A DNA stretch of 64,000 bases, from the NCBI RefSeq assembly GCF_014280875.1, contig NZ_JACLAL010000001.1:62001-126000 (forward strand), written 5' to 3'. This DNA is from Paenirhizobium daejeonense (GTDB lineage Bacteria > Pseudomonadota > Alphaproteobacteria > Rhizobiales > Rhizobiaceae). Below the pieces are notes generated by a model. That model made no database searches. It was not told where the DNA came from and saw only the letters and a list, made by a program, of their open reading frames with translations. This document shows positions 7,652-46,124 of this stretch, piece after piece (the stretch's first letter is position 1; every line of letters begins with the position of its first letter). The translations under genes were made by a program, and so were the position numbers.

Positions 7652-7662
7652 CGCCGAACAAG

Positions 7663-7683
7663 GGCCTGCCGTTGCGGCAGGCC
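7663..7683 (+). terminator. GC-rich hairpin after the aminotransferase gene
   Basis: A 9-bp perfect stem with a 3-base loop begins 11 bases after the aminotransferase stop codon. There is no T-run after it, so it may terminate weakly or stabilise the transcript end. Confidence 0.45.
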
Positions 7684-7739
7684 TCAGAGCGCCGGCGAAG
7701 CGAGTCTACCGGTTCCGGCGGTCACAAAGTCATCCTTCC

Positions 7740-7853
7740 GTCATGCCTGTGCTTGTCACGGGCATCCAGCGACCCGACGACCGTCGGGTCAAAAGACCCT
7801 TTCAGCCCAAAGACTTGGGCTGGCTGGATTCCCGTGACAGGCACAGGAATGAC
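7740..7853. repeat. Palindromic intergenic repeat with two internal hairpins
   Basis: Outer arms at 7740-7770 and 7823-7853 are inverted copies agreeing at 28 of 31 positions. Between them lie two further perfect hairpins, 7771-7790 (8-bp stem) and 7804-7821 (7-bp stem), so the element can fold into a three-way cruciform. It resembles the dispersed palindromic elements between genes of Rhizobium and Agrobacterium. It lies between two genes that end towards each other. Confidence 0.8.
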
Positions 7854-7940
7854 GAGGTGGAACGCGCCGCGTGCCCGTCATGCGCTGTAGAGGCAAGTAC
7901 CCAAGTGGCCTCAAGCTCCGCTGGTGCGGAATTGTGCCGC

Positions 7941-8594: not shown

Positions 8595-8778
8595 GAAATT
8601 TCTCCGGAGGTGACGCGCGCAGCATAACCCGCCACGACTGCGACACAGATCCATCTACAATCATCGGCGATTCGGATATAGTTCGTTCGCGCCGCTGCCA
8701 GGTGCAAGTCTTGTGGGCAGTCATCGCGGCAAGAGTGCTGATCGATTGAGAGTGGCGAGCGATTTTGGAGATTTGACG

Positions 8779-9384
8779 ATGCTGATTTCGAAGATGCCGC
8801 GAGCACTTGCTGTACCGGCCCTTCTCGGGCTTGCCGCTTCGCTCGTGCTTCCGGCTGTTGCCGAGGCTCATATCCTGCAGGGCGAGGCAGGTGGCTTTCT
8901 TCATGGCTTCGAGCATCCGCTATCCGGTGCCGACCACCTGCTCGCCATGTTCTGCGTCGGTCTCTGGGGCGCGCAGATGGGCGGGCGCTCCGTATGGAGC
9001 CTGCCGATTGCCTTTCCGCTGATCATGGTCATCGGCGGCATGATGGGCATTGCCGGAGTGCCGCTGCCGGCAGTGGAAAGCGGCATTGCGCTTTCTATCA
9101 TCGTGCTGGGTGCGGCGATCGCCTTCGTCTGGCGTCCGCCGGAATGGCTGGCAGTGCTGGTGATCGGCGTCTTTGCGATCTTCCATGGCTATGCTCACGG
9201 CGCGGAATTGCCAACGGCCACCGATCCGGCCGATTATGCGATTGGCTTTGTCGTCGCAACCGGCCTTATCCACCTTCTCGGCATTTCCGTCGGTCTTGCC
9301 TTCCAGCGCTTTCGGGGTGGGGAACTCTCCCGCGCCGTGGGTGGCCTGATCGGTCTCGGCGGCGTCTATTTCCTCGTCGCCTGA
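8779..9384 (+). CDS. Second HupE/UreJ-family metal permease
   Basis: A 201-residue paralogue of the divergent neighbour. It starts at ATG 8779 after GGAG at 8767-8770. A signal-like N-terminus ends near AEAHILQ, and the family histidines occur in HGFEHPLSGADHLLAMFCVG, AIFHGYAHG and TGLIHLLGI. The next gene begins 4 bases after its stop and the one after that overlaps by ATGA, so three genes form one transcription unit: permease, unknown membrane protein, DUF1007 protein. Ni or Co uptake is the likely function from family knowledge. Confidence 0.86.
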   Translation: MLISKMPRALAVPALLGLAASLVLPAVAEAHILQGEAGGFLHGFEHPLSGADHLLAMFCVGLWGAQMGGRSVWSLPIAFPLIMVIGGMMGIAGVPLPAVESGIALSIIVLGAAIAFVWRPPEWLAVLVIGVFAIFHGYAHGAELPTATDPADYAIGFVVATGLIHLLGISVGLAFQRFRGGELSRAVGGLIGLGGVYFLVA

Positions 9385-28868: not shown

Positions 28869-30455
28869 TTATTCGCTCAGCGCTCGCCGAAGCCGCCGGA
28901 GGATGACGCCGCGCGCCTTGTCGTCTCCGGCGCGCTTGAGTTCGTCCTGAAGGTCGAGCACCAGCGACTGCAGGTCGTTATGCCAGTCCTTGTGGCCGGG
29001 CCGGGCGGGATCGATGCGCGGCGCCCTGATCTCGGAAATGTCGGTTGGTCCTCCGGCTGTCATTTCGAAGGCGCTGTCGAGGCGCGGGATGAAGATCCGC
29101 TCCAGCGGCAGGAAGGCCGAGAGACGTTCCCCGAGCCCGGCAAGCGCCGCCTCTTCTCCATGCACGAGGAAGACGCCTGACGTGATTGGCAGCCGTTCCT
29201 TCACCCAGGCGGCAAGTTCGGGGCCATCGGCGTGGCCGCTATATATGTCGAGGCGGCGAATGCGGGCACGGACGGTGATCTCATCCCCCTGGATGCGCAC
29301 CGTCTGCGCGCCGTCCTCGAGAATGCGTCCGAGCGTTCCGGCAGCCTGATAACCGACCAGCAGCACGGTGGCCTCTTCGCGCCAGAGCCAGTTCTTCAGC
29401 CGGTGTCGGATACGTCCCGCGTCACACATGCCGCTTGCGGCGATCACGATGTGGAAGCCGTGCATGTGGTCGATGGCCTTTGACTGCTCGACCGTTTCCG
29501 TAAAGCGCACATTGCGCGCCTCCATGGCCTCTGCCAGCATCTGGCCGTTCTCCAGTTCACGGGCATGACGGCGGAAGATCTCGCTTGCCCGCGTGGCGAG
29601 CGGCGAGTCGATCACGATCGGGCAGGTGGGGATATCGCCGGTCTTCATCAGGTAGACGAGATCGGCCAGCAGTTCCTGCGTGCGTTCGACTGCAAAGGAG
29701 GGGATCAGCAACGCCCCGTTGATGTTGGTGGCCGCTTTCACCTCCGCCTTGAGCGCCGCCCGCCGGGTCTGGTCGGAAACATCGTCACGATCGGTATCGC
29801 CATAGGTACTTTCGCAGATGACGTAGTCGAAACCATCAGGCGCCTCCGGGTCGAATTGCAGAAGCTTGTGGCTCGGGCCGATGTCGCCGGAAAAGAGCAC
29901 GCGCAGCTGTTTGGCGGGCGTGTCGATCTCCATTTCGACGGACGCCGAGCCGAGCAGATGGCCGGCATTCCAGAACCGGAAGCGTATCCCCTCTGCTGCC
30001 TGCTGCCAGCGTTCCAGTTCGACCGTGCGCATCAGGGTGACGGCGCGCGCGGCATCCTCCGCCGTATAGATCGGCTCCACTGTATCGCGGCCGCGACGCT
30101 GGTTGCGGCGGTTGAGTTGCTCGACTTCGCTTTCCTGGATATGGGCGGAATCCGGCAGCATCACCGAGCAAAGATCGATCGTGCCGCGGGTGGCGAAGAT
30201 CGGTCCGTCATAGCCGACCTTGGCGAGCTTTGGCAGCAGTCCCGAATGATCGATATGGGCATGGGTCAGGATCACCGCCTCGATGGAGGTCGGCTCGAAC
30301 GGAAAGGATCGATAATTCAGTTCCTTCTCGCTCTTCGATCCCTGGAACATGCCGCAATCGACGAGCACGCGCGTACCGCCGTTTTCGACGAGGAAGCAGG
30401 AGCCGGTCACCGTGCCGGAGGCGCCATGGAAGCGGATGATGGGAGCGGAAGTCAT
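28869..30455 (-). CDS. Beta-CASP MBL-fold RNA-processing hydrolase
   Basis: A 528-residue metallo-beta-lactamase fold protein of the beta-CASP group, as in Ysh1/CPSF73 and bacterial or archaeal RNA nucleases. The zinc motif is HAHIDHSG (65-72), FSGDIG carries another ligand, and late motifs AASGMCDAGRIRHRL and YSGHADGPELAAW are typical of the RNA-cutting members. It probably acts as an RNase in the cytoplasm. It is downstream of the type I secretion run on the same strand, but 172 bases away, so co-transcription is uncertain. Confidence 0.87.
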   Translation of the reverse strand: MTSAPIIRFHGASGTVTGSCFLVENGGTRVLVDCGMFQGSKSEKELNYRSFPFEPTSIEAVILTHAHIDHSGLLPKLAKVGYDGPIFATRGTIDLCSVMLPDSAHIQESEVEQLNRRNQRRGRDTVEPIYTAEDAARAVTLMRTVELERWQQAAEGIRFRFWNAGHLLGSASVEMEIDTPAKQLRVLFSGDIGPSHKLLQFDPEAPDGFDYVICESTYGDTDRDDVSDQTRRAALKAEVKAATNINGALLIPSFAVERTQELLADLVYLMKTGDIPTCPIVIDSPLATRASEIFRRHARELENGQMLAEAMEARNVRFTETVEQSKAIDHMHGFHIVIAASGMCDAGRIRHRLKNWLWREEATVLLVGYQAAGTLGRILEDGAQTVRIQGDEITVRARIRRLDIYSGHADGPELAAWVKERLPITSGVFLVHGEEAALAGLGERLSAFLPLERIFIPRLDSAFEMTAGGPTDISEIRAPRIDPARPGHKDWHNDLQSLVLDLQDELKRAGDDKARGVILRRLRRALSE

Positions 30456-32297: not shown

Positions 32298-32789
32298 TCA
32301 GATCTCCTTGGCCAGATGCGGGCTCTTGTGAATGAAAGCCCAGAGCGATTTGCTGATATCGGTGATTTCCGCGATCGAGCTTTCGAGCTGCCGCATCTCC
32401 TTTTCGTCCATCTGCTCGACCTTGCCGTAGCGGATCTCGCTGTCTGTCTCGACAAGCCGCATGAGCTGGGTGCTGGAGATGTCACCGCTCTCGTCGAATG
32501 AATAGATGCTGTGATTGTACTTGTTGCGGACCTTGGCTTCCTTTTTGAGCCGCGCCATGGCGAACAACACGGCTTCTCGGTCGGCTTTCGGGGTGGAGCG
32601 ACGCTTGGCGAGCCGTTCCACGAGATCGATCCTGGCCCTTGTGGTATTGAGCGTCAGGAAAACGATGATCGCCGCTTCCTTGTCGACGGCCAGAAGGTGG
32701 GCGATGACATAGATCAGCAGACTTTCCGTATTGGTCCAGACGTAATTCAGCCGGCCGACTCCCAACAAAACATCCGGCATGTTTCCCAT
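32298..32789 (-). CDS. Small helical protein with RX4H motif (HEPN-like), function unknown
   Basis: A 163-residue protein, predicted mostly helical, not recognised as a named family. It has R88-NKYN-H93, an RX4H motif as in HEPN ribonuclease domains, in a helix-rich setting (ARLKKEAKVRNKYNHSIYSF). The motif is short and could be chance. The ATG at 32789 has AAGGG 9 bases upstream. It lies between the HlyD gene (42 bases upstream in transcription) and the acetyltransferase gene, so it travels with the type I secretion genes. No antitoxin-like partner is adjacent. Confidence 0.7.
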   Translation of the reverse strand: MGNMPDVLLGVGRLNYVWTNTESLLIYVIAHLLAVDKEAAIIVFLTLNTTRARIDLVERLAKRRSTPKADREAVLFAMARLKKEAKVRNKYNHSIYSFDESGDISSTQLMRLVETDSEIRYGKVEQMDEKEMRQLESSIAEITDISKSLWAFIHKSPHLAKEI

Positions 32790-32831: not shown

Positions 32832-34181
32832 TCACAACTCCTTGAATGCACGAGACATGCTGTCGCTGATCGGCTTCGAAAGATATTCGAAGAACGTCCG
32901 CTCCGATGTCTGGATCAGCACGTCGGCCGGCATGCCCGGAACGGGGTGGAAGCCATGCACCAGCGCCAGTTCTTCCTTCGGTAGTTCCACTCGGACGATG
33001 TAGACGTCCCTCTGGGCGCCCACCGTGCCTTCTTCGATCGAATCCGCAGAGACGTAGAACACTTTGCCTGTCAGCACGGGTGTGGTGCGGCGATTGAGCG
33101 CCGAAAGCCTGATTGCTGCGGTCTGCCCTTCGCGAAGCTGATCGATCGAGGTACGCAATACCTGCGCCTCGATGATCAGGGGAACCCCGGCGGGCAGGAT
33201 TTCCATGATCGGCTTTCCTGTGGTGATGACGCCACCGGCAGTGTGGTAATAGGAGCGTACGACGGTACCGGTGACAGGCGAGCGGATGACCGTGCGTTCG
33301 AGCACGCCTGCGGCCTCCGTCATCTGCTCGCGAACGCTGTCGAGATCGGATTCAGCCGTTTCAAGCGCGTCGAGCGCGGCCTGCTTGTTGGAGTTGATCG
33401 CGATCACGGCTTCCTGCTGGTATTTGGCGATCTGCGCGCGGTTCTCGTTGAGTTCGCCTTCGAGACGGGCGAGGTCGCCGAGCGCGTCGGCAATGGCCCG
33501 TTCCATGGCGAGCAGGTCCATCTTGCGCAGGTAGCCGACCTTGACGAGCTTGGCCTTGGAATCGCGTTCCTCGGTCAAAAGAGCGATCTGCTTTTCGAAG
33601 GATTCCTTCTGGCCCTGGTATCCTGCGAAGCGGAACTCCAGTGAGACGATGTTCTTCTGAATGAGGTTAAGCTGCTCCTCCAGTTTGACCTGCTTGCTGT
33701 GGAAGATGACGTTCTGGCTCTCGATGATGGCATTGACCTCGGGATCGCTCGCTTCCTTCATGACGATATCGGGAAGGTTCAACTGCTTGTTGCCGTCGGC
33801 TTCCGCCCTGAGACGCGCGACCACGGCTTCCAGCCTGAGACGTCGGAGCTTCAAGGCCCGTTCGTCTGCGAGCGCGGCAGTTGGATCAAGCGTCAGAAGC
33901 ACCTGGCCTTCCTTGACCATCTCGCCTTCGCTGACCTTCATTTCCCTGATGATGCCGCCTTCGAGGTGCTGAACGATCTTGTTGTTACCCGTCGCGACGA
34001 AACTACCCTGCGCGATGATCGCGGACGCCAGCGGCGCGGTCGCCGCCCAGAAGCCGAAACCGCCGAAGGTGCTGAACAGAACGGCCAGGCCGACCACCGT
34101 ATGGCGCCGGATCGAACGTGGCACTTCGTTGTACCACTCGACCGGGCCAGCTTCTCTTTTCACTGTAACGCTGCGTGCCAT
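32832..34181 (-). CDS. HlyD-family type I secretion membrane fusion protein
   Basis: The periplasmic adaptor of a type I secretion system, about 449 residues. A membrane anchor is at about residues 25-50, then a long coiled coil with heptads (about 95-280), then lipoyl and beta-barrel parts (VIRSPVTGTVVRSYYHTAGGVI, GTVGAQRDVYIVRVEL). It links the ABC transporter to an outer membrane TolC-like protein that is not encoded in the window. I place the start at ATG 34181; a GTG at 34190, directly at the end of the ABC gene, is possible. Similar in type to rhizobial PrsE. Confidence 0.92.
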   Translation of the reverse strand: MARSVTVKREAGPVEWYNEVPRSIRRHTVVGLAVLFSTFGGFGFWAATAPLASAIIAQGSFVATGNNKIVQHLEGGIIREMKVSEGEMVKEGQVLLTLDPTAALADERALKLRRLRLEAVVARLRAEADGNKQLNLPDIVMKEASDPEVNAIIESQNVIFHSKQVKLEEQLNLIQKNIVSLEFRFAGYQGQKESFEKQIALLTEERDSKAKLVKVGYLRKMDLLAMERAIADALGDLARLEGELNENRAQIAKYQQEAVIAINSNKQAALDALETAESDLDSVREQMTEAAGVLERTVIRSPVTGTVVRSYYHTAGGVITTGKPIMEILPAGVPLIIEAQVLRTSIDQLREGQTAAIRLSALNRRTTPVLTGKVFYVSADSIEEGTVGAQRDVYIVRVELPKEELALVHGFHPVPGMPADVLIQTSERTFFEYLSKPISDSMSRAFKEL

Positions 34182-34190
34182 GGTACTCAC

Positions 34191-36794
34191 TCACTTTTTG
34201 TCGAGGCGCGGGGCCTCTGCGCCGGCACTATTGCTCAGTGCCTTCAGGACGTCCGCGCGTTCGCCGAACATGGCGACCGATCCGTCCTTGAGCACGAGGA
34301 TCTTGTCGACCACCTGCAGGAGGGCAGGGCGCTGGGTGATCGTCACAGTGGTGATACCCTGCTTTTTCGCGTGGATGAGGGCGCGTGCAAGCGCGGTCTC
34401 CCCAAGCGTGTCGAGATTGGAGTTCGGCTCGTCGAGCACTACGAACTTCGGATCGCCGAAGAAGGCGCGTGCAAGCGCGATGCGCTGTTTCTGGCCGCCC
34501 GAAAGCGGTGCGCCATCGGCCGCCACCACGGTTTCATACCCCTGTGGGAAGCCGGCGATCAGTTCGTGTACATCGGCAAGCTTTGCCGCCTCAAAGATCT
34601 GCCGGTCCTCGACGTCGTCGCGCATGCGGCTGATATTGGCCTTGATGGTCCCAGGGAAGAGTTGCACGTCCTGGGGTAGGTAACCGATGCTTTCGCCGAA
34701 CTGCCGCTGGTCCCAGTTGCGCAGGTCCATCAGGTCGAGGCGCACATTGCCCGATGTCGGCAGAATGGAGCCGACCAGCATCTTGCCGAGCGTCGTCTTG
34801 CCGGAACCGGAATTGCCGATGATGGCGAGCGATTCACCCTTGCGAAGCGAGAAGGAGATGCCGTTGAGGATCACCTTTTTCTGCGGCGGGGGCACGAAGA
34901 GAATGCGCTCCACGTCGAGCCGCCCCTCGGGATTGGGCAGGCGAAGTCGCGGGAAATTCAGTGGTGAATTCACTAGCAACTGCTTGATGCGGCCATAAGC
35001 CGAGGCCGACTTGTTGAACTGGTTCCAGCCCTCGATTGCACCTTCGATCGGGGCAAGAGCCCGGCCGGAGATGATCGATGCGGCGATCACCATCCCGCCG
35101 GTCAGTTGCCCCGAAAGCGAAAGATGAGCCCCCCAGCCGAGAAGGGCGATTTGCGTGATCATGCGGCAGCCCTTGGAGAGGCCGGCGAACATGATGTTTC
35201 TGTCCTGGGCCGCGACATGGGCTTTGAGCGAGCCCGCTGTCTCCTGGCCCCACATCCGCACCGCTTCCGGGATCATGGCGAGCGCATTGATGATCTGCGA
35301 ATTGCGCGACATGGATTCGAGATGAAAATTCGCACGGCCGGCAAAGCCGTTGGCCTCGGCGAAATGACGAGCCGTGAACCGCTGGTTGAGGAAGGCGATG
35401 AAGAACAGCACGGCGCAGCACGTGAGAATGATGAGCCCGAGATGCGGGTGAACGAGATAGACCACCAGCACGAAGAGCGGCATCAACGGCGCGTCGAGGA
35501 AAGCGATCAGTGTGCCTGACGTCAGGAAGCCGCGAAGTTGCTGCAGGTCCTGCAGGATCTGGTAGTCCTTGCCTGTGCCGTGCAGCGAGGCTCTCGCCGC
35601 GGCACTGAGAATGGGAGCGCCGAGTTGTACCTCCAGTTCGACCGCCGTGCGCATCAGGATGAAACGCCTGATCGCATCGAGAAAGGCTTGAAGCAGGACG
35701 GCGCCCACGACCGCTATGGTCAGCATGATCAGCGTGTCCATCGACCGACTGGTGAGAACCCGGTCCGAGATCTGGAAGAGATAGAGCGGAATGGCGAGCA
35801 ACAGCACGTTGATGGCAATGGTGAAAACCATCACAATCATCATGTTGCGCCTCACGGCGGCGATACCCTTGGCCAGGCTCGCGGCGAAGTTCACCGGGCC
35901 GCTGCGTTTGTGGAAGCCGGCTTGGCCACCATTTCCACCGCCGCCATTGCCCTTGTCGTCAGAGTCCTTGCCGCCACCGCCGCTACCGTCGGAGGGACGT
36001 CGTTCGTTATTGCGGATCGGCCCCCGGTCGTTTTCGATTGTCTTTCCGAATGGCGTGTCCGGAACCGGTGTGATGTCGATTTCCCGGACAGGCTGGTCGC
36101 GTCTTGCCACCGTCTCGGTATTTACTGCCGGCTTTGCCGCAGCCTCCGACGCGACGGCCGCCCCGCTCTTGTTATTGTTTTGGGCTGGGGCGGCCGCCCG
36201 TCCGGCGGACCCGTTTGGCGCCGCAGCCGCGACATTCGGCGGCGCCGCTTGAGCGTTTGCCTGCGATCCCCTGGAGGTGGGACCTTTCGGTTGCGCGACT
36301 GCGGCCTCTGTGGCGACGCCTCGGCGCATCGAAGATTGCGATGCGGCGTTGTCGAGGCGTCTCAGGTTCTCGATTACGTCTTCGATCGTCGGGGTGCCGG
36401 GCTTCGGCTCCCGAGACGCCAGCACAGACGCCGGGATAAGGCCTGGCATTCTCCCTGTACCGGACCGATCGAGGGCGGGGCGTGGCTGGACAGGCGGGCC
36501 GATCCGGACGGCCTGTGTTTTCGGCATCTGTGGTGGCGGAACGACGCGAACTTTGTCTTCTCTGCTTTCGTCCGGCGTTCTGCCGTCGGCAGGCCGTGTG
36601 TCGCCTGAATTATCCACGAGTTTCGACGCTGAATCGGTCAGCCTCTTCAGGTCTCCGATCACATTGTCGATCGCCGAAATGCCTGTGCTCGCCGGGTCTG
36701 CGGAGCCGTCGCCGGACGGCGGTCCGGACAGGTTCTGCGGCTCCAGGTCGATTGCCTTGCTTCTCGACAATTCGTCCTTTGATACGTGGTTCAT
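34191..36794 (-). CDS. Type I secretion ABC transporter with long disordered N-terminus
   Basis: An 867-residue ABC exporter. Residues from about 300 on form the membrane domain, and the ATPase domain carries Walker A GNSGSGKTT near 660, the signature LSGGQKQRIALARAFFG and Walker B FVVLDEPNSNLD. These parts match the PrtD/PrsD class that exports proteins without a leader peptide. What is odd is the first 260 or so residues: low complexity, rich in Pro, Ala, Gly, Ser, Asn and charged residues, with no recognisable C39 or CLD domain. It starts 22 bases after the 681-residue protein ends, with GGGGGGAG upstream. I infer that it exports the two repetitive proteins encoded just before it. Confidence 0.93.
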   Translation of the reverse strand: MNHVSKDELSRSKAIDLEPQNLSGPPSGDGSADPASTGISAIDNVIGDLKRLTDSASKLVDNSGDTRPADGRTPDESREDKVRVVPPPQMPKTQAVRIGPPVQPRPALDRSGTGRMPGLIPASVLASREPKPGTPTIEDVIENLRRLDNAASQSSMRRGVATEAAVAQPKGPTSRGSQANAQAAPPNVAAAAPNGSAGRAAAPAQNNNKSGAAVASEAAAKPAVNTETVARRDQPVREIDITPVPDTPFGKTIENDRGPIRNNERRPSDGSGGGGKDSDDKGNGGGGNGGQAGFHKRSGPVNFAASLAKGIAAVRRNMMIVMVFTIAINVLLLAIPLYLFQISDRVLTSRSMDTLIMLTIAVVGAVLLQAFLDAIRRFILMRTAVELEVQLGAPILSAAARASLHGTGKDYQILQDLQQLRGFLTSGTLIAFLDAPLMPLFVLVVYLVHPHLGLIILTCCAVLFFIAFLNQRFTARHFAEANGFAGRANFHLESMSRNSQIINALAMIPEAVRMWGQETAGSLKAHVAAQDRNIMFAGLSKGCRMITQIALLGWGAHLSLSGQLTGGMVIAASIISGRALAPIEGAIEGWNQFNKSASAYGRIKQLLVNSPLNFPRLRLPNPEGRLDVERILFVPPPQKKVILNGISFSLRKGESLAIIGNSGSGKTTLGKMLVGSILPTSGNVRLDLMDLRNWDQRQFGESIGYLPQDVQLFPGTIKANISRMRDDVEDRQIFEAAKLADVHELIAGFPQGYETVVAADGAPLSGGQKQRIALARAFFGDPKFVVLDEPNSNLDTLGETALARALIHAKKQGITTVTITQRPALLQVVDKILVLKDGSVAMFGERADVLKALSNSAGAEAPRLDKK

Positions 36795-36816: not shown

Positions 36817-38862
36817 TCAGGCGATCATTGTTTGCATCACGTCCGCAGGACTTGCATGAGGTCCACCGAGGTCGTCTGCCGAATTGAAGACAATGTCATC
36901 CGTGTTGGGGGGCGCGGGATCATTGTCGAGAAAGGCGATGACTTCGTTGGCAAGCTGGTTGTTCGTCGGTTGCGGTTGTGTGTGGTCGTCTTCCACGAGT
37001 CCTCCCTGGATCAGGATGGCATCGGAATACGTCTGGCCCGCCACATAGGTCGAACCGCCGAAGCTGTCGTAGTCGACGATCTCGGCGATGTTGATGATCG
37101 CGTTGCTGCCGGTGTCTATCGTGATGTTGGCGGTCTGGGTGTTGGCGAGATAATCCGACGCGGCCTGCGTGACATGATCGGAATCGCCGAGAATGCTCAC
37201 CTGCTTGATGTAGGTGATATCGTAGAGGTTGCCGGTGATGTAGAGAACGTTCAGCCATTCGTGACCGACGAAATTGGGGTCGGTTCCTAGCGTTTCCGGC
37301 ATGTTCGGATCGCCGTGTTGAATGTTCTGCTGGGCCTGCTGCATATAGTCGGGCATTGCCTCGAAACGATCGTTGCTGCCGACGTTGTGGATCGAAGCCT
37401 CGTTCCACAGAAGGTTGTTCCCCGTCTGGGTATTCACGTTGTCGGTGCCGCCCGCTTCGCCGGTAATCGTGTCGTTGTCATAGAGAACAGCCAGCTGGCT
37501 GATGATGTTCATGTCGAGCACATTGCCGCCGACGATCACCAGGTCATATTGCTGGCCAAGCCCGAGATAGGCAGTGATGTTGAACGCGGCATTGCCGCCG
37601 ATCAGTACGGTGGTCTCATAACCGGTCGTGGTGACGACCATTTGGTCGTTGTCGGTGACGAAGTTGTACTGCTCGATCCATTGTACGAAACAGACGTCCC
37701 CATCGATGACGCTGACGCGCCAGTCCGAAGGATAGGTGGGATCCTGATCCGGCGCCGCCTGGCTGTCGGCTCCGGTGCCGCCGAATTCGGTTCGGTCGAA
37801 TGTGGCGATGTTCGCTGCGACGGTCGGCGCATGGCTGCTGTTTTCGCCATCCCATCCATTGCCGCATCCTTTTTGGGCAAAGGCGTTGGTATCGTTGTCG
37901 CTGTAGACATAGGCCTGCGTGATCACATCGATCTGGTGGTAGTTGCCCATTACGCTCATGACGGGGGTAATCACGCCCGTCGTGGTGAAGCTGGCGATGT
38001 TGGCAACGACATTGGCGCCCGCAGTGATGTCGAGCGTGTTCTGGGGTCCCGGCTGTTCGAGCGGCGTTTCGCTCTTCTGCGGATCGTCTTCCGGCTCCGC
38101 CAGTCCGCGATCCGGCATGAAATCGTTGAGGGAGGGCGCTTCTTGCGTGATCACTCCGTTGACATAGGTACCGTGGATTTCGTCCCCGGCCAGCACGAAG
38201 TTCACCTCGGCGTCCTCGCCGATCGATGTGGTATTATTGGAAACCAGATCCTCTTTGTAGTCATGAACCTCCTGCGCGATCTTCTGCAGGCTTTCGTAGG
38301 CGTCGGTGCGGTCGAGATCGGAAAAGGGCGTGAAGCGCACTGCGTCGGTCGCGAATTCCGCCAGTCGCTCGACGACGTAGCTGGTATCCAGCTTCGCGTG
38401 ATAGTCGCTGGTCATGTTCAGGTAGTCGTCGTCGAAAAGCAGATTGATCTGCGCCATATGCGAGATCGCCGACCCCGGCCCCGGATGGACCAAGAGGCGT
38501 TCATCGGGTTCTATCGGGATGTTCGGCTCGCTCACGCCCATGCGCGGAAGTCTGAAACCGCCCCCGAAGCCTTCGTCGAGATCCCTGAGCTCCTGTGTCG
38601 ATAGCGGATCGAAATAGGCTCGTCCCCCGACATCGAAGTGCTTAACGCCGTTGTCCTGGTATTCGACGCCTGGAACATAGTCTTTTAGTGCGAGGTCGGA
38701 AGCGAATTTGGGATCCAGCGCTTCGAGTTCCTCGCTGGGCGCAGGAGCATTGTCATGCACCTGACCGCCCGTATAGCCGATACGCAGCCGCGCCTCGTCC
38801 ATAACGCTGTCAAAATGCCCGATAAAGTGGGCGATGATTTCGGAAATCCTGTCGATCTGCAT
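36817..38862 (-). CDS. Large acidic repeat protein, predicted type I secretion substrate
   Basis: Not recognised as a named family. A 681-residue acidic protein with no signal peptide, starting at ATG 38862 behind GGGAGGTGG. From about residue 283 it is built of repeats. A 19-residue motif, consensus G-N-x2-D-x3-I-x-Q-x2-V-x2-D-N-D, occurs at 306, 388, 446, 544 and, weaker, 609. Each is preceded by a second motif, (G/A)-N-x3-N-x-A, at about 283, 347, 423, 481 and 587. The Asp/Asn-rich ends could bind calcium. The N-terminal 280 residues are unique. The dedicated ABC/HlyD genes directly downstream make it a likely secreted matrix or surface protein; this is inference. Confidence 0.75.
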   Translation of the reverse strand: MQIDRISEIIAHFIGHFDSVMDEARLRIGYTGGQVHDNAPAPSEELEALDPKFASDLALKDYVPGVEYQDNGVKHFDVGGRAYFDPLSTQELRDLDEGFGGGFRLPRMGVSEPNIPIEPDERLLVHPGPGSAISHMAQINLLFDDDYLNMTSDYHAKLDTSYVVERLAEFATDAVRFTPFSDLDRTDAYESLQKIAQEVHDYKEDLVSNNTTSIGEDAEVNFVLAGDEIHGTYVNGVITQEAPSLNDFMPDRGLAEPEDDPQKSETPLEQPGPQNTLDITAGANVVANIASFTTTGVITPVMSVMGNYHQIDVITQAYVYSDNDTNAFAQKGCGNGWDGENSSHAPTVAANIATFDRTEFGGTGADSQAAPDQDPTYPSDWRVSVIDGDVCFVQWIEQYNFVTDNDQMVVTTTGYETTVLIGGNAAFNITAYLGLGQQYDLVIVGGNVLDMNIISQLAVLYDNDTITGEAGGTDNVNTQTGNNLLWNEASIHNVGSNDRFEAMPDYMQQAQQNIQHGDPNMPETLGTDPNFVGHEWLNVLYITGNLYDITYIKQVSILGDSDHVTQAASDYLANTQTANITIDTGSNAIINIAEIVDYDSFGGSTYVAGQTYSDAILIQGGLVEDDHTQPQPTNNQLANEVIAFLDNDPAPPNTDDIVFNSADDLGGPHASPADVMQTMIA

Positions 38863-39003: not shown

Positions 39004-39999
39004 TCAGGCGCCGGTATCCTCGCCGGTATGGGTGACATAGGAGTCGCCCCCTATGACGCTGCTGTCGATGGTGTTGCTCAGCAGGTTCGCGCCCTGGACG
39101 AACTCGAAGTGGAAGCCAGAATTGGCAAGGATCGCCGAAGCATCGGCGGTGCTCGCACTGGAAACGTCGTCGCCAGCCGAAAGATCCCAGCCCTTGGCAT
39201 CGAGATCCATACCTTCGCTTCCGTTGGCTGTGCCGCCATTCGCGCTCAGATAGTTCTGCGCTCCGCCGTTTTCCATACGCACTTCCCACGCCGTGTCCTG
39301 GTCGGCGAGGTGGCTTGCCTGGACCGCATTGAAGCCGCTGTCGTTGCCCGCGCCATTGAGCGAGTCGTTCAGGATGTTGTCGACATTGAGCGTGAATGAG
39401 AAGTCGTCACCGATCTCGAAGGTCAGGTCGCCGCCGGCGATACCGAGATTACCGAAGTCGTGCACGTTGTCGAGCTGGCCGAAATCATTGTCGGCCGAGT
39501 TGAAGCTGTCGCTCGTGGAAATGTTGAAGCTGTCGGTCGTCGTCTTGATATCGGTGTCTGTTTCGGTGACCGTCTTGATGTCGGTATCGATGTCGGTTTC
39601 CGTGTTGGAGTAGGACTTGCTGTCATAGCTCCAGTCATATTCGGAAGTGTTGTAGCTGTCCGTCACCGTCGTGGTGTCGTTGTCCGTGATCGTCTTGATG
39701 TCGGTATCGGTCTCGGTATTGGAATAGGACTTGCTGTCGTAGCTCCAGTCATATTCGTTGTCGCGATTGTTGCCGTTGTCGGTCGCGACATCGACGTCGA
39801 TCTTAGAGTCGAGATCCACGTCGATGCTGTTATCCGTGTTGATCTCGCTATTTTCGCGGTTGTCGCCATTCGCTACACCGCCGACATAGCCAGTCGAACC
39901 GTCATCCACTTCCGTGGAGTTGATCGCGCTGTTGGCAAAGCCGTCAGCCAGAGCGCCGACATTGGTCTCGTCACCCTGCGGGTTATAGCCGTAAGACAT
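39004..39999 (-). CDS. Low-complexity acidic repeat protein, predicted secreted
   Basis: Not recognised as a named family. A 331-residue, very acidic protein rich in Asp, Thr, Ser and Asn. Two near-identical copies of the segment EYDWSYDSKSYSNTETD lie at residues 82 and 120 (period 38), followed by TDIKT-type repeats. The second half (about 180-331) is less repetitive, with Gly and Asn. There is no signal peptide, so export by the type I transporter two genes downstream is the best explanation. The ATG at 39999 follows GGAGG at 7 bases. It is the first gene of the run, separated by a strong hairpin from the rest. Confidence 0.72.
   Translation of the reverse strand: MSYGYNPQGDETNVGALADGFANSAINSTEVDDGSTGYVGGVANGDNRENSEINTDNSIDVDLDSKIDVDVATDNGNNRDNEYDWSYDSKSYSNTETDTDIKTITDNDTTTVTDSYNTSEYDWSYDSKSYSNTETDIDTDIKTVTETDTDIKTTTDSFNISTSDSFNSADNDFGQLDNVHDFGNLGIAGGDLTFEIGDDFSFTLNVDNILNDSLNGAGNDSGFNAVQASHLADQDTAWEVRMENGGAQNYLSANGGTANGSEGMDLDAKGWDLSAGDDVSSASTADASAILANSGFHFEFVQGANLLSNTIDSSVIGGDSYVTHTGEDTGA
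39571..39756 (-). repeat. Direct repeats inside the 331-residue protein gene
   Basis: Two DNA copies of about 66-72 bases, at 39691-39756 and 39571-39642, encode the EYDWSYDSKSYSNTETD segment and the following TDIKT. They differ at a few bases, so the similarity is at both DNA and protein level. Confidence 0.85.
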
Positions 40000-40702
40000 T
40001 TCCATTCCTCCAAAAAAATGGAGCAGCATTCGAAAATCCCTCTCATCTCAAATGGGACCTGTTTCGCGCTTGCTCCGTATTGTTGTTGACCGCAGACGTA
40101 CAATTCACGAAATCATCTGCGGAGGCTTATTCGTTTTGAGGGTCTATTGGTCCCTCAAGACGCACTCTCCCTTTTTCCGAAGTGCAGAAGCACAACGGGC
40201 CAATTTTTTAGATGGCTTTATTGATCAGCGGGTTGAAATGATCTCTACGTCGAACAGAATTACTATGAAGACCACGTCCGTCCTCTTCTGACACATAAAC
40301 TCAACAGGAAAATGGTAGCCGTTCATAGCTACAAAATCGGATTAGTCATGAGTGCTGATGGAAGCCTGAAAATACTTTCAGTTTCGGGACTTGGCCCTGG
40401 ATATACCTTTGGGAAACATTTTTGCCGCTCCGAAAAAATCAGTAAAAACCAAGGGAGGAAGCACAAATTGCGGAGGAGAGAAAATGTGTGGAAAATGTTC
40501 GAGTGTGCCTAAAAAAGTCGCGATATGCCCGGGTTTGTGGTTTTTTTGACGCCGAATAACCCAAAATGATCATTTCCAACCCCTGCTTTTCGAACTAACA
40601 TAATTAACTAATAATTAAATCAATGAAAGGGATTGGGGGCCAAATGCGGCTCCCCCGCGGATCTACATGTAACGAGTAAGCTAACGCCAAGGGGAGGCAT
40701 GT
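40000..40702. other. AT-rich intergenic region between secreted-protein gene and LuxR gene (703 bases)
   Basis: No convincing gene. It is visibly more AT-rich than its neighbours, with A- and T-runs. Two hairpins lie near the secreted-protein side: 40091-40121 (6-bp stem, 19-base loop) and 40136-40158 (7-bp stem, 9-base loop). It should hold divergent promoters for the repeat-protein operon and the regulator, and perhaps long untranslated leaders. Confidence 0.65.
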
Positions 40703-41476
40703 ATGTTTATGAGTGAGTCACATATAAGTGACCCCGCACGCCATATGCCAGGGGTAGTTCAGGGTAATTCTATACTTATGATCGCAAGGCAGGATCTTTT
40801 GGCTGAATGCCTGGCCGAGGTCCTTTCCAGAAAATTCCCAAATCATGACATTATCGTTCGCCCGACAATGCGGGATGTAAGCGAAAATGAAGAGAATGGC
40901 GCAAGTTTGATCTTGCTTTATCGTCTTTCCTCCGCAGATATACAGAACGCACTTCTGAGGCTGCGGCGCAACGAGGACGGGGCATCGATCGGTATCGTTG
41001 TCGACGGCGTGGGGCCATTGGACGCCTATTACCGCAATCTCGCCGAAGCCCGCACAATTGATGGGATTTTGCCGCTCAACCTGCGGCTTGATGTGTTTCT
41101 GGCGGCGGTCGACCTGCTTGCGAAGGGTGGGGAGCACTTCCCTTCATCTCTGCTGCAGCGGTTGAGCAGCGATGCCCCCCTTGTCGAGGCTTCGTATGAA
41201 AGCGGCCTTGTCACGGCAGCAAGGTCGAATACCCTCACTCTCCCGAACGGGGATATGGCGGCTCTTACCACGAGAGAAGTGCAGATCCTCGATCTCATCT
41301 GCGAGGGTACGCAGAACAAGATCATCGCTGACCGGCTGAACCTTTCGGAAAACACCGTGAAGGTTCACATACGCAACATTTACAAGAAGATGCATGTGCG
41401 CAACCGCACCGAGGCGGCCTCGCGCTTCTTCAACAACGACAGAGCGAGCAACGGTCAGGGCAAACGGCAGAACTAA
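40703..41476 (+). CDS. LuxR/NarL-type response regulator-like transcription factor
   Basis: A 257-residue regulator with a C-terminal LuxR helix-turn-helix (about 190-250: LTTREVQILDLICEGTQNKIIADRLNLSENTVKVH). The N-terminal half looks like a receiver-type fold but lacks the usual phosphoacceptor context, so it may be an atypical receiver. The start ATG 40703 follows GGGGAGG. It is divergent from the repetitive secreted protein gene and lies between the type I operon and the polysaccharide cluster, so it is the best candidate to control both. Confidence 0.85.
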   Translation: MFMSESHISDPARHMPGVVQGNSILMIARQDLLAECLAEVLSRKFPNHDIIVRPTMRDVSENEENGASLILLYRLSSADIQNALLRLRRNEDGASIGIVVDGVGPLDAYYRNLAEARTIDGILPLNLRLDVFLAAVDLLAKGGEHFPSSLLQRLSSDAPLVEASYESGLVTAARSNTLTLPNGDMAALTTREVQILDLICEGTQNKIIADRLNLSENTVKVHIRNIYKKMHVRNRTEAASRFFNNDRASNGQGKRQN

Positions 41477-41851: not shown

Positions 41852-42233
41852 GTGTCTCTTCCGCCGTAGGTCGCATTGATGATCAATGTGACCGATTCGG
41901 GGCCATTTTGACAGGCGTGTATTAGCATTTTCTGACGATGCGCAGGGAGAGGCCTCTGGGAGGGCCCCTGTCTCGGGGCATCAAGCGTCATGCTTAACAA
42001 ATTATAACCAGAAAGTACTACGTATAATCATATCGGGTTTTTGCGAAAATATTGATTGACCGGAATAAAAATGGGGACAGTATCTGTATTAACGCAAGCT
42101 TAACCAGCGAGTATTGTCCAAATGGACATGTGTTCTACTTTGGTACACTTGGTCTAAGTCTTGTGGAGTATGTTGTTCATTGAGTCGAGTTCGGGATCTT
42201 TTTTGCATGATCCCGAGGCTGGGGGTGTGTGTA
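41852..42233. other. Intergenic region upstream of the polysaccharide cluster (382 bases)
   Basis: No gene. It is AT-rich around 41995-42070. A 14-bp inverted repeat TGTCCA-AA-TGGACA lies at 42115-42128, and a hairpin (8-bp stem, 10-base loop containing six T) lies at 42191-42216, 18 bases before the first start codon. Probably promoter and leader of the cluster. Confidence 0.6.
42115..42128. promoter_or_regulatory. Inverted repeat upstream of the polysaccharide cluster
   Basis: TGTCCA, two bases, TGGACA: perfect 6-bp arms, about 105 bases before the first gene. Possible binding site of the LuxR-type or another regulator. Confidence 0.4.
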
Positions 42234-43265
42234 ATGCGTAAGCTCTTCTCCGATGGTTCGCCTTCCTTGGATATGTCGTCCGAACCTTTTCCTCGCATGG
42301 TTCTCGTCAATGGCGGTGCGGGTTTCCTGGGTTCGCATCTCTGCGAACGCCTGCTGGATGCCGGTCACAGCGTCATCTGTTGCGATGATTTCTCGACAGG
42401 GCGCCGGGAAAATATCCGGCACCTTCTGTCGAAACCGGGTTTCCGCGTCATGGAACACGACGTACGTGATCCCTATGACGTCGATGCCTCGCTGATATTC
42501 AACTTCGCCTCGCCGGCCTCGCCGCCGGACTACCAGCGCGACCCGGTCGGCACGTTGCTGACCGGCGTGCTCGGGGCGCTGAACGCGCTGGATCTTGCCC
42601 GACGCAACGGCGCGATCGTGGTGCAATCATCGACTTCCGAGGTCTATGGCGATCCGCTCCAGCATCCGCAGCAGGAAAGCTATTGCGGCAACGTCAATCC
42701 GATCGGGCCGCGAGGATGCTATGACGAGGGCAAGCGTTGCGCCGAGACGCTGTTCTTCGACTATCACCGCAAGTATGGCGTCGATATCAAGGTCGGCCGT
42801 ATCTTCAATACCTATGGACCGCGCATGCGCCTGGATGACGGGCGTGTCGTCTCGAACTTCATCGTTCAGGCGCTGCAGAACCAGGACATGACGATTTACG
42901 GCGATGGTCACCAGACCCGCTCGCTCTGCTACGTCGATGACCTGATCGAGGCCTTCATGCGCTTCTCCGGCGCCGGCACTAACTGCAACGGACCTATCAA
43001 TCTCGGCAATCCGGTCGAAATCCCGGTTCTCCAACTCGCCGAACTGATCCGCGACCTGACCAATTCCCGGTCGCGCATAGTGCATCTTGCAGCTGCTGTC
43101 GACGATCCGAAGCAGCGCCGCCCCGATATTTCCCGGGCGGCGGAAGAACTCGGCTGGCAGCCGCGCGTGTCCTTGAGGGACGGACTGGAAAAGACCATCC
43201 GTTACTTCGATGCCGTGATCGGCCAGGCCGCTACGGAAGGACGCGAACCCGCGGAGGCATTGTAA
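42234..43265 (+). CDS. UDP-glucuronate decarboxylase-like SDR epimerase/dehydratase
   Basis: An extended short-chain dehydrogenase of 343 residues. The NAD motif GGAGFLGSHLCERLL is near residue 25, the active-site Ser/Tyr/Lys are in SSTSEVYG and GPRGCYDEGKR, and FNTYGPRMRLDDGRVVSNF follows. This pattern is typical of UDP-glucuronate decarboxylase (UXS), which makes UDP-xylose; a related dTDP-glucose dehydratase activity is less likely. I start it at ATG 42234; an open frame extends further upstream without support. It is the first gene of the polysaccharide cluster, and galE starts one base after its stop. Confidence 0.85.
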   Translation: MRKLFSDGSPSLDMSSEPFPRMVLVNGGAGFLGSHLCERLLDAGHSVICCDDFSTGRRENIRHLLSKPGFRVMEHDVRDPYDVDASLIFNFASPASPPDYQRDPVGTLLTGVLGALNALDLARRNGAIVVQSSTSEVYGDPLQHPQQESYCGNVNPIGPRGCYDEGKRCAETLFFDYHRKYGVDIKVGRIFNTYGPRMRLDDGRVVSNFIVQALQNQDMTIYGDGHQTRSLCYVDDLIEAFMRFSGAGTNCNGPINLGNPVEIPVLQLAELIRDLTNSRSRIVHLAAAVDDPKQRRPDISRAAEELGWQPRVSLRDGLEKTIRYFDAVIGQAATEGREPAEAL

Positions 43266-43266
43266 G

Positions 43267-44250
43267 ATGTCCCGCACCGTTCTCGTTACCGGAGGCGCCG
43301 GCTTCATCGGCAGCCATATCTGCAAGGCACTTTCCCATTCGGGTTTCATCCCTGTGGCCTACGACAACCTTTCCACCGGACACGCGGATGCGGTCCGGTG
43401 GGGACCGCTGATCGAGGCCGATATCGCGGATGGCGGTGCGTTGCGGGCGGCTTTCGACCGGTTCGCGCCGGACTGCGTGATCCACTGCGCTGCCAATGCC
43501 TATGTCGGGGAATCCGTCACCAACCCGCAAAAATACTACCGTAACAATGTGGCGGCGGGCCTCAGCCTGCTCGATGCCTGCCTCGCGGCAGGCATCGGCA
43601 GGATCGTATTTTCCAGCAGCTGCGCGACATACGGCATTCCCGAGCAGCTGCCGATCCGCGAAGACAGCGTGCAGGAGCCGGTCAACCCTTATGGCCGCAC
43701 CAAGCTGATCTTCGAAATGGCGCTCGATGACTATGCGCAGGCCTATGGTCTGAACTTTGTCGCCCTGCGTTACTTTAACGCTGCGGGTGCCGATCCCGAC
43801 GGCGAGCTTTCCGAACGGCATGAGCCGGAGACGCATCTCATTCCGCGGGCGCTGCTCGCAGCTGCCGGCCAGCTCGATCGGCTGGAGATCTTCGGTCAGG
43901 ACTACCCGACCGACGACGGCACCTGCATTCGTGACTATATCCATGTCAGCGATCTGGCCGATGCCCATGTCGCCGCCGTCCGGCATCTGGCGAATGGTGG
44001 CGACACGCTGCGCCTCAATCTCGGTTCCGGCCAGGGCACCTCGATCGATGAGGTCCTGCAGGCAATCGACCGGGTTACTGGTCGGCGGGTTCCGGTCATC
44101 TTCAAGCCGCGCCGTCCCGGCGATCCGCCGGTGCTCTTCGCGGATACCGCGAGCGCACGCATCAAACTCGGCTTTGTGCCGCGCCTTTCGGATATCGACA
44201 CGATCATCCGCACGGCAAGCCCCAGCTTCGGTCTGGAGGTTGTTCGATGA
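43267..44250 (+). CDS. galE: UDP-glucose 4-epimerase
   Basis: A 327-residue GalE/ExoB-type epimerase that interconverts UDP-glucose and UDP-galactose. The NAD motif GGAGFIGSHICKAL is at the N-terminus, active-site Ser is in SSSCATYG and Tyr-Lys in NPYGRTK, then YFNAAGADPDGELSERHEPETHLIP and GTCIRDYIHVSDLADAH follow. It overlaps the glycosyltransferase gene by ATGA, so production is coupled. It supplies nucleotide sugar for the neighbouring synthase. The rest of the genome may have another galE. Confidence 0.93.
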   Translation: MSRTVLVTGGAGFIGSHICKALSHSGFIPVAYDNLSTGHADAVRWGPLIEADIADGGALRAAFDRFAPDCVIHCAANAYVGESVTNPQKYYRNNVAAGLSLLDACLAAGIGRIVFSSSCATYGIPEQLPIREDSVQEPVNPYGRTKLIFEMALDDYAQAYGLNFVALRYFNAAGADPDGELSERHEPETHLIPRALLAAAGQLDRLEIFGQDYPTDDGTCIRDYIHVSDLADAHVAAVRHLANGGDTLRLNLGSGQGTSIDEVLQAIDRVTGRRVPVIFKPRRPGDPPVLFADTASARIKLGFVPRLSDIDTIIRTASPSFGLEVVR

Positions 44251-46124
44251 GCGTGGTCCCGAGAATTGGCTCAAGTGTTGCCCGGAAGGAAGCTCGCAGC
44301 CAGATGATGGAGCCGGTGTTCGCTGGGCGCTCCTGGCTCGTCTACCTTTTCGGCATGCTCTGCTGGTTCGGGGCGCTCGCCAATTTCTGGATCTGGTGGT
44401 TCGATCCGTCGCATGTCATCGGTTGGCTGCCATTTGCCCTGATCACGCTCGTCATGGCCTGGATATCGCTCATCCCTGCCTATTTCATCCTGATCTTCTT
44501 CAATGCGAAGCGCATGCGGCGCTCGGTACCTCTGCCAAGCGGTCGCGTCGCCATGGTCGTAACCAAGGCTCCGTCGGAACCTTTCGAGGTCGTGCGCAAG
44601 ACGCTTTCCGCCATGCTGTCGCAGCGCGGCCTCGATTTCGACATCTGGCTGGCCGACGAGGATCCGGAGGCCGAAACCAGACGCTGGTGCGGGGAACACG
44701 GGATATTCATCTCTACCCGCAAGGGCGTTGCCGAATACCACCGCGCCGAATGGCCACGTCGCACGCGCTGCAAGGAAGGCAATCTCGCCTATTTCTATGA
44801 TCGTTACGGCTATGAGCGTTACGATTTCGTCGCGCAGTTCGATGCCGATCATGTGCCTGACCCAGACTACCTGCAGGAGGTGATCCGTCCCTTCTCTGAT
44901 CCGGCGGTCGGTTATGTTTCCGCACCGAGCATCTGCGACGCCAATGCCGCATCGAGCTGGGCTGCGCGCGGACGGCTCTATGCCGAAGCGAGCCTGCATG
45001 GCGCCTTGCAGGTGGGCTACAACAATGGCTGGGCGCCGCTCTGCATCGGTTCGCACTATGCGGTGCGCACGAAGGCGCTGCGTGAGATCGGTGGCCTCGG
45101 CCCGGAACTGGCCGAGGACCATTCGACCACGCTGATGATGAATGCCGGCGGCTGGAGCGGCGTGCATGCGATCGATGCGATCGCCCATGGCGACGGGCCG
45201 GAAACCTTCGCCGATCTTTGCGTTCAGGAATTCCAGTGGTCCCGCAGCCTCACGACGCTCCTGCTGCAGTATTCCGCACCCATGGTCCGCAAGCTGCCGC
45301 CGCGGCTGAAGTTCCAGTTCATCTTCTCGCAGCTCTGGTATCCGCTGTTTTCCGGCTTCATGGCGCTGATGTTTGCGATGCCGCTGGTGGCGCTCCTGAC
45401 CGGCAAGGTCTTCGTCAACGTCAGCTATCCGGATTTTCTCATTCATTTCGCACCGGTTTCCCTGGTGCTGATCGGTCTCGCCATCTTCTGGAGGCGAAGC
45501 GGGACCTACCGCCCCCATGATGCCAAGCTGTTCGGCTGGGAAGGTATCGCGTTCATCCTGTTGCGCTGGCCGTGGTCGCTTGCCGGAACCTTGCTCGCCG
45601 TTCGCGATCGCATCACCCGCAGCTTCGTCGATTTCCGCATCACGCCCAAGGGCAAGCAGGAAGTGCGGCTGCTGCCGGTTCGCATTCTCATGCCGTATGC
45701 CGTGCTGGCCGGCTTTTCGGCGGCCGCCATGGCGTTTGCACCGGGTGAAGGTGCTGCGCGCGGTTTCTACATCTTCGTCTGCGTCAATGCGGCGGTCTAT
45801 GCGATGGCTGCTGGCCTGATCGTTACGCGACACGCCTTCGAGAACGGCTTCCGCGCTGTAACCCGCTCCCGTGGCATCGGGCTCGTTTTGGCGAGTTGCG
45901 TGCTTGTGGTCGGCGTCAGCGGTGCTGAGCTTGGCCAGCATGGTGTTGGGTCGCTCGAGGCTCTGGCCCATGGGCAGAATGTTTTCAGTGTCACCAAGAC
46001 CCAGTTCACGGTTGCCGGCGCCGGCTTCGGCGGCAAGACGAAAACGGTGAAATTCCATCTGCGCTGGAACGGTTTCGGCGCTGCTCAGCCGGAAAGTACG
46101 CATGCAATTGAACCCAATGCGTAG
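44247..46124 (+). CDS. Membrane-embedded GT2 family polysaccharide synthase
   Basis: A 625-residue processive-type glycosyltransferase of the cellulose/curdlan synthase group. Two N-terminal membrane segments, a cytoplasmic GT2 domain (about 95-340) and five or so C-terminal segments are visible. Catalytic motifs are WLADEDPE, FDADHVPD and LAEDHS (TED-like). The acceptor-binding motif, normally QxxRW, reads QEFQWSRSL, with Gln in place of the usual Arg. It overlaps galE. It likely makes and threads a beta-glycan through the inner membrane; the linkage type is not readable. No PilZ domain is seen, so any cyclic di-GMP control would be indirect. Confidence 0.88.
   Translation: MSVVPRIGSSVARKEARSQMMEPVFAGRSWLVYLFGMLCWFGALANFWIWWFDPSHVIGWLPFALITLVMAWISLIPAYFILIFFNAKRMRRSVPLPSGRVAMVVTKAPSEPFEVVRKTLSAMLSQRGLDFDIWLADEDPEAETRRWCGEHGIFISTRKGVAEYHRAEWPRRTRCKEGNLAYFYDRYGYERYDFVAQFDADHVPDPDYLQEVIRPFSDPAVGYVSAPSICDANAASSWAARGRLYAEASLHGALQVGYNNGWAPLCIGSHYAVRTKALREIGGLGPELAEDHSTTLMMNAGGWSGVHAIDAIAHGDGPETFADLCVQEFQWSRSLTTLLLQYSAPMVRKLPPRLKFQFIFSQLWYPLFSGFMALMFAMPLVALLTGKVFVNVSYPDFLIHFAPVSLVLIGLAIFWRRSGTYRPHDAKLFGWEGIAFILLRWPWSLAGTLLAVRDRITRSFVDFRITPKGKQEVRLLPVRILMPYAVLAGFSAAAMAFAPGEGAARGFYIFVCVNAAVYAMAAGLIVTRHAFENGFRAVTRSRGIGLVLASCVLVVGVSGAELGQHGVGSLEALAHGQNVFSVTKTQFTVAGAGFGGKTKTVKFHLRWNGFGAAQPESTHAIEPNA

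Follow-up and report, generated by a model that had tools for sequence, protein, structure and literature searches.

The window analysed here is a stretch of 64,000 nucleotides from Paenirhizobium daejeonense (assembly GCF_014280875.1, contig NZ_JACLAL010000001.1, positions 62,001 to 126,000 of the forward strand), and our subject is a gene in it that encodes a 681-residue repeat protein, REP681. The gene belongs to a set read in a single direction, in the order LC (for low-complexity protein), REP681, a type I secretion ATP-binding cassette (ABC) permease/ATPase, a HlyD-type periplasmic adaptor, the small protein p163 and a GNAT-TPR protein. The gaps are 141 bases between LC and REP681, 22 between REP681 and ABC, 0 between ABC and HlyD, 42 between HlyD and p163, and 41 between p163 and GNAT-TPR. 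For REP681 we adopted the start common to most homologs (38862), and the list of open reading frames (ORFs) begins 11 residues earlier. REP681 contains a glutamine-centred 19-residue motif in five supported copies, starting at residues 128, 306, 388, 446 and 544, with a weak sixth at 609. The module is conserved across Hyphomicrobiales and Rhodobacterales, and the REP family is unnamed in every library that we searched. Coordinates are collected in Table 1.

Table 1 Positions of REP681, its motif copies and the surrounding genes, counted from the first base of the window.
Feature	Position	Strand	Basis or remark
REP681, 681-residue repeat protein, presumed type I secretion substrate	36817..38862	minus	ORF and 39-row alignment
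Gln-motif copy B1, residues 128-146	38425..38481	minus	Gln 39/39, D-x-D 39/39 rows
Gln-motif copy B4, residues 306-324	37891..37947	minus	scoring, profiles, conservation
Gln-motif copy B6, residues 388-406	37645..37701	minus	scoring, profiles, conservation
Gln-motif copy B8, residues 446-464	37471..37527	minus	scoring, profiles, conservation
Gln-motif copy B10, residues 544-562	37177..37233	minus	scoring, profiles, conservation
Weak Gln-motif copy B12, residues 609-627	36982..37038	minus	Gln 39/39; Asp end lost
Asn-motif copy A3, residues 282-294	37981..38019	minus	profiles, conservation
Asn-motif copy A5, residues 347-358, degenerate	37789..37824	minus	short strand absent in both models
Asn-motif copy A7, residues 422-434	37561..37599	minus	profiles, conservation
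Asn-motif copy A9, residues 481-494	37381..37422	minus	profiles, conservation
Asn-motif copy A11, residues 585-599	37066..37110	minus	D-x-D end too (39/39)
Weak, possibly additional Asn-motif copy A13, residues 635-647	36922..36960	minus	best P 19
Candidate type I export signal: C-terminal tail (DVMQTMIA here), conserved and headed by an invariant Asp	36820..36843	minus	alignments
LC, low-complexity protein, presumed partner	39004..40029	minus	C-terminal motif upstream of REP
Gln-like motif within LC, GNDSGFNAVQASHLADQD	39295..39348	minus	top LC stretch in the window's group, P 35
Conserved GAN motif by the LC C-terminus	39046..39102	minus	kept across loci
Type I secretion ABC permease/ATPase	34191..36794	minus	TIGR01842, 770 bits vs cut-off 510
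HlyD-type periplasmic adaptor	32832..34190	minus	TIGR01843, 411 bits vs cut-off 209
p163, small conserved protein without assigned function	32298..32789	minus	36/40 loci, 8/8 plasmid loci
LuxR/NarL-type regulator, divergently transcribed	40703..41476	plus	GerE domain
Two epimerase/dehydratases and GT2 glycosyltransferase	42114..46124	plus	all three in 4/40 loci

The core of the glutamine (Gln) motif, G[ND]x6-I-x-Q-x5-D[NS]D, finds exactly the copies at 306, 388, 446 and 544 in REP681, and 20,000 shuffles of the protein gave four matches in total, never more than one per shuffle. The segment at residue 128, GPGSAISHMAQINLLFDDD, is an additional copy. To score the copies, we used an alignment of the window protein with 38 homologs (39 rows, A2), from which locus L037 was dropped for its broken frame and L041 for being cut by its contig. 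Each copy was left out in turn, and we counted how many of 500 shuffles reached the score of the omitted copy: 7 for copy 306, 1 for 388, none for 446 or 544, 51 for 128 and 494 for 609. Profile-profile comparison among the copies at 128, 306, 388, 446 and 544 gave P >50 in nine of ten pairs; as controls, non-motif stretches reached P >20 in 0 of 208 comparisons, and reversed copies exceeded P 50 in one of 35 (P 50.9). Copy 128 was moderate by the leave-one-out measure, and its profile clearly resembled those of the four others (P 73-89, with P 89 for copy 446 and P 82 for copy 306). The similarity of copy 609 to the Gln copies was not significant (best P 12), and we call it weak by sequence because both methods fail to support it.

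A genome scan yielded 40 REP loci, 39 of which bear names that we take to belong to Hyphomicrobiales; the remaining one is titled Proteobacteria only. Throughout the 39 rows of A2, none of the six copies varies at the Gln. Copies 128, 306, 388, 446 and 544 keep both aspartates of the D-x-D end in every row, and copy 609 has lost them. Hydrophobic residues alternate with the conserved polar ones, like a strand having one conserved face. We also prepared a wider alignment of 16 rows (A4) that includes Rhodobacterales, and 11 of 15 share 27-32% identity with the window protein. All six Gln were still invariant there, and the D-x-D end was kept in copies 128, 388, 446 and 544.

Five copies of a second, asparagine (Asn)-centred motif alternate with the Gln-motif copies along REP681. 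Profile pairs among these five reached P >50 in seven of ten cases, and the central Asn at residues 288, 351, 428, 487 and 591 is found in 39, 39, 38, 39 and 39 of the 39 rows, respectively. The two motifs resemble one alternating strand motif, N-x-hydrophobic-x-N/Q-x-A/N-x-hydrophobic-x-D-x-D. Profile comparison left the Asn and Gln groups unjoined, and a permutation test of the one-motif idea gave 125/2000 at the expected register, with a different one of the 17 registers scoring better (42/2000).

A sequence-only reading of this DNA had described a five-copy motif here, and its positions agree with ours: residue 306 begins at base 37947, Gln stands at position 11 in the segments from 306, 388, 446, 544 and 609, and the spacing, put at about 58-98 residues, measures 82, 58, 98 and 65. 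Its 19-residue consensus, G-N-x2-D-x3-I-x-Q-x2-V-x2-D-N-D, has to be loosened, as the core is present at 306, 388, 446 and 544 and the string as written is matched literally only at 446. The count of four clear copies and a weak one at 609 stands, with the copy at 128 missed. Likewise, the partner motif (G/A)-N-x3-N-x-A occurs literally only at 283, and what precedes each copy is a looser form around the five Asn residues listed above. The LC motif and the conserved secretion module were also absent from that account.

For structure prediction, AlphaFold2 was run on alignment A2. The whole protein was predicted with a local distance difference test score (pLDDT) of 66.7 and a predicted template modelling score (pTM) of 0.68, with most of the repeat region above 70, and the repeat domain alone (residues 272-650) reached 75.3 and 0.75. 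At 9 of 11 copies of the whole protein, and at 9 of 10 of the domain, the models place a short strand before a turn at the conserved Gly and a long strand (10-20 residues) after it, which agrees with the proposal of the sequence-only reading that each unit could be a beta-rich module. When the models were compared with solved structures by Foldseek, the top entry for the whole model was FapC (E 0.033, probability 0.04), and that for the repeat domain was CsgA (8c50; E 0.043, probability 0.02, TM 0.07). Polygalacturonase, pectinase-like and polysaccharide-lyase helices were among the other non-significant matches. We regard the FapC and CsgA matches as weak leads rather than matches, which agree with the sequence logic in kind only.

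Neither REP681 nor its homologs matched a Pfam, NCBIfam or PHROG family above cut-off or significantly. Sequence search of the PDB gave no match up to E 1 with A2 and one unrelated chain (E 9.8) with A4, and solved FapC chains were matched with neither alignment. Full RTX nonapeptides (GGxGxDxUx) number zero in the 39 sequences, in line with the sequence-only reading, which had found no match to them; a single partial GGxGxD is present in the window protein, and no Pfam RTX match was obtained. Pfam, which we take to include a curlin model, gave no curlin match for REP681 up to E 1 (the HMMER filters drop most matches above 0.1) and none for the 39 sequences up to E 0.1. Among the scanned window proteins there was no CsgG-type match, and the neighbours of REP681 are type I genes. 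No recognised calcium-binding family in Pfam or NCBIfam was found for REP681, and no enzyme family above cut-off for REP681 or its homologs. One match to HFX_2341_N (E 0.025; best 0.002 among homologs) was treated as chance. The sequence-only reading would have given way to a known repeat family or to a model lacking repeated units; no searched library placed the region in such a family, and the models contain repeated units. Our literature searches, over titles and abstract starts of open-licence papers, returned no paper describing the REP family or a type I-exported amyloid among the matches listed, and among those for Roseobacter biofilm plasmids no link to the REP family.

Around REP681, the gene module is well kept. 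Across the 40 loci we found ABC in 39, HlyD in 38, p163 in 36 and GNAT-TPR in 8; the loci without ABC or HlyD lie at contig ends (L015 for both, L047 for HlyD). A LuxR match is present in 35 loci, upstream and divergent in 33 of them, with L036 and L049 doubtful. A protein search also located REP homologs on plasmids, in 32 records, among them some from Paracoccus, Sulfitobacter, Cereibacter and Rhodobacter. We examined eight of these loci, seven from Rhodobacterales and one from S. meliloti: p163, the upstream divergent LuxR gene, the LC motif and ABC occur in all eight, and HlyD in seven (L055 is cut by the record end). Where annotated, REP homologs on plasmid records are called 'hypothetical protein' or 'type I secretion protein ATPase'. 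The latter label, carried by the Sulfitobacter homologs on NZ_CP081132.1, NZ_CP081133.1 and NZ_CP116424.1, is apparently wrong.

The position of p163 varies: in 27 of the 36 loci that have it, and in seven of the eight plasmid loci, it lies upstream, usually adjoining the regulator, and not behind HlyD. It had no Pfam or NCBIfam match. All 36 p163 homologs contain R-x4-H, as RNKYNH or a near variant, which presumably recalls the HEPN motif. The ABC protein has an N-terminal extension of about 310 residues, rich in Ala, Gly and Pro, ahead of the part matched by TIGR01842 (311-853), and four inspected homologs are likewise long (728, 765, 792 and 830 residues). A TolC-type type I outer-membrane protein is encoded elsewhere in the genome, above its family cut-off. 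The curli regulator CsgD is of LuxR type, as is the regulator of this module, which scored far under the cut-off of the CsgD model and likewise of the NarL model. Past the regulator on the plus strand follow two epimerase/dehydratases, a GT2 glycosyltransferase, a DUF995 protein, a GH26-like protein and a group-1 glycosyltransferase. In Sulfitobacter, of a different order, homologs of the epimerase/dehydratases and the GT2 enzyme (49-52% identical) flank the module too.

Sequence search detected LC in 14 of the 40 loci, and it was overlooked in others because it is of low complexity. Upstream of REP, 39 of 40 loci have the C-terminal motif of LC (the exception, L041, starts inside REP), and so do all eight plasmid loci. 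In many lineages, the Gln motif of LC reads GNDVGN..Q.AN..D.D. To compare it with REP681, we picked LC frames blind to the motif (39 of 41) and divided each into overlapping stretches of 36 residues. Among the 28 LC rows of other loci, the Gln stretch ranked first among 46 (P 91, E 1e-6 against REP copy 128), and every stretch not overlapping it scored P ≤15. LC shares the Gln motif of REP clearly in most lineages and only weakly in the window's own type.

Several further observations concern LC itself. Its low-complexity make-up varies by lineage, with Asp-Ile-Lys-Thr, Gly-Gln, Asn-Gly, Ser-Glu or Gly-Asp repeats; L021, L033, L045, L046 and L055-L057 are among the varied genes, and S. meliloti has little low complexity, with the C-terminal motif constant. 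The S. meliloti LC has just 183 residues and retains the GAN part of that motif. As a copy of the Asn motif, the C-terminal motif was rejected, since its best P values in two comparisons, 10 and 22, were not significant. SdrC-type models matched LC at E 1e-5, far under their cut-off, probably as a low-complexity effect. In Rhodobacter sp. CZR27, a single 1,517-residue protein is annotated across both LC and REP; we do not count it as a fusion but as a broken frame in a low-complexity stretch, because the LC C-terminal motif lies in another frame. Three records show such a break of the LC frame within its low-complexity part (L057 5566-10119, L055 of Sulfitobacter 7137-8789, and L037 upstream of REP), one of them yielding the false fused protein; sequencing error or slippage could be the cause.

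With the window protein alone as query, 10 of the 60 genomes searched matched, the own one included. A4 matched 27 of 297 genomes sampled from the order, where three matches were short and weak, 2 of 385 from the class and 8 of 398 from the phylum, the own genome being included in each of these counts. All genome matches fall within the window's class. This patchy presence is as for an accessory trait.

On the whole, we consider it probable, if by no means certain, that REP681 is a type I-secreted, ladder-stabilised beta-solenoid that acts with LC in the biofilm or cell-surface matrix under a LuxR-type regulator. Observed support for this proposal comes from the invariant repeats, the gene module, the families of its transporter proteins and the motif shared in most lineages, and the models add predicted strand-turn-strand units. 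The closely packed genes, the conserved Asp-led tail, the TolC-type protein, the polysaccharide genes beside the module and the precedent of FapC also count in its favour. REP681 would leave the cell through the type I transporter encoded just downstream, for which its Asp-led C-terminal tail may be the signal. Outside the cell, the repeats would fold into a beta-solenoid or a similar stack of strands, one beta-arc per copy, with hydrogen-bonding ladders formed by the invariant Asn, Gln and Asp from one copy to the next. LC, with its related Gln motif, may template or anchor REP681, and the two, perhaps together with the neighbouring polysaccharide, would form a structural component of the biofilm matrix or the surface, which may be stiff and is possibly amyloid-like. 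The divergent LuxR-type regulator would control the operon.

Known amyloid systems offer a comparison. The conserved Asn, Gln and Gly of FapC build its solenoid, and mutation of Asn/Gln slows fibrillation (PMC12392863); curlin repeats follow N-x-hydrophobic-x-hydrophobic-x-Q, twice, with a Gly turn, and in the pairs CsgA/CsgB and FapC/FapB the minor protein nucleates the fibre (PMC12822426). The REP module resembles FapC/FapB in its imperfect repeats, conserved Gly, Asn and Gln and single operon, and would also do so in a beta-solenoid and in a nucleating partner with repeats of its own, like FapB (PMC12392863, PMC12822426). It resembles curli in the Asn/Gln alternation with a Gly turn, and would also do so in a nucleator whose repeats are like those of the main subunit (PMC12822426). 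LC and REP recall CsgA/CsgB and FapC/FapB because neighbouring genes share a repeat. However, export in the Fap system relies on the FapF pore together with other Fap proteins, and in curli on CsgG together with other Csg proteins. The REP681 repeats also differ from Fap in their added Asp-x-Asp ends, long variable loops and lack of a significant sequence or fold match, and from curli in their motif spacing and the lack of a Pfam curlin match in REP681 or its homologs.

Fibre formation by REP681 is a possibility. That the module constitutes a further functional-amyloid system, with REP681 as fibre, LC as nucleator or anchor, dedicated type I export and LuxR control, partly plasmid-borne and spread over two alphaproteobacterial orders, seems to us doubtful at present. 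If REP681 does polymerise, amyloid-like matrix fibres would have an additional export route, and the motif shared by LC would open nucleation to direct testing. Otherwise, it would still be an invariant Gln/Asn/Asp repeat design outside the families searched, and it might help to determine how root and marine bacteria grow on surfaces. Carriers of the conserved module range over soil, plant-associated and marine Alphaproteobacteria and include an S. meliloti strain and Paracoccus.

Several points weigh against the matrix solenoid. In A4, two Rhodobacterales rows are without the Asp end in copy 306. The whole-protein model falls below pLDDT 50 at residues 1-121, 253-273, 331-344, 362-370 and 636-681, and the short strand is missing at A5 in both models and at A9 in the whole-protein model. 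The predicted strand order is that of a beta-arc solenoid, and the proposed topology is drawn from this order. Fold searches of the PDB and a viral library gave nothing at E ≤0.001, TM-scores were ≤0.13 in all PDB rows listed, and VIA-align Z values for FapC, 2.9 and 3.0, are too low to carry meaning. The idea that the Asn and Gln motifs are a single motif is no more than suggestive. For LC, the window's own type (11 rows) gave the Gln stretch as the best of 51 stretches yet with P 35 only, and an earlier comparison (30 stretches, 45 loci) that produced higher P had used rows preselected for Gln and an acidic end. The polysaccharide trio adjoins the module in few loci (4/40), and the literature searches found no report of REP export, localisation or phenotype.

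Alternatively, REP681 might be a monomeric adhesin or scaffold that folds on extracellular calcium through its Asp-x-Asp ends, in the manner of an RTX beta-roll without RTX repeats, a reading that we consider unlikely. The D-x-D end, invariant in five of six Gln copies and in A11, fits a metal site, a type I transporter adjoins REP681, and type I substrates often fold on calcium. RTX proteins and the Rap proteins of the PrsDE type I system are similar in that type I secretion genes adjoin, with export of REP681 by such a route presumed. However, the 39 sequences of the REP681 family have no full RTX nonapeptide and no cadherin-like or other Pfam domain above cut-off, and no calcium-binding family was recognised. 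In addition, Asp shares the alternation of Gln and Asn, so that a ladder accounts for Asp-x-Asp without a metal. Another parallel is BapA of Paracoccus denitrificans: it is a biofilm adhesin encoded beside another type I system, with dipeptide repeats like those of LC in several lineages, and calcium stimulates attachment of the species (PMC5588039). In contrast, the REP module comprises two proteins with no adjoining outer-membrane gene seen.

The glycosyltransferase, epimerase and GH26-like genes close by, together with the polysaccharide-acting helices among the non-significant fold matches, could instead suggest a secreted enzyme or polysaccharide-binding beta-helix that acts on the polymer of the neighbouring genes. 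We find this improbable: no enzyme family scored above cut-off, and the invariant residues are distributed over all copies, not gathered in one site, which suggests a structural role. As for a surface-layer (S-layer) or sheath subunit coating the cell instead of filling the matrix, one dedicated transporter adjoins one protein pair and S-layer proteins are known to be exported by type I secretion, but the patchy presence (27/297 genomes of the order, the own one included) and the lack of any S-layer model above cut-off, where one SlpA match was listed for the homolog of S. meliloti (E 0.2), make it more improbable still.

Finally, the window contains a beta-CASP metallo-beta-lactamase protein (28869-30455, minus strand). 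It scored 315 bits against the type VII CRISPR Cas14 model (cut-off 800) and 241 bits against aCPSF1 (cut-off 580), and because both scores are under the cut-off it is neither by NCBI's rule. The gene lies near the module in only two of the 40 loci.

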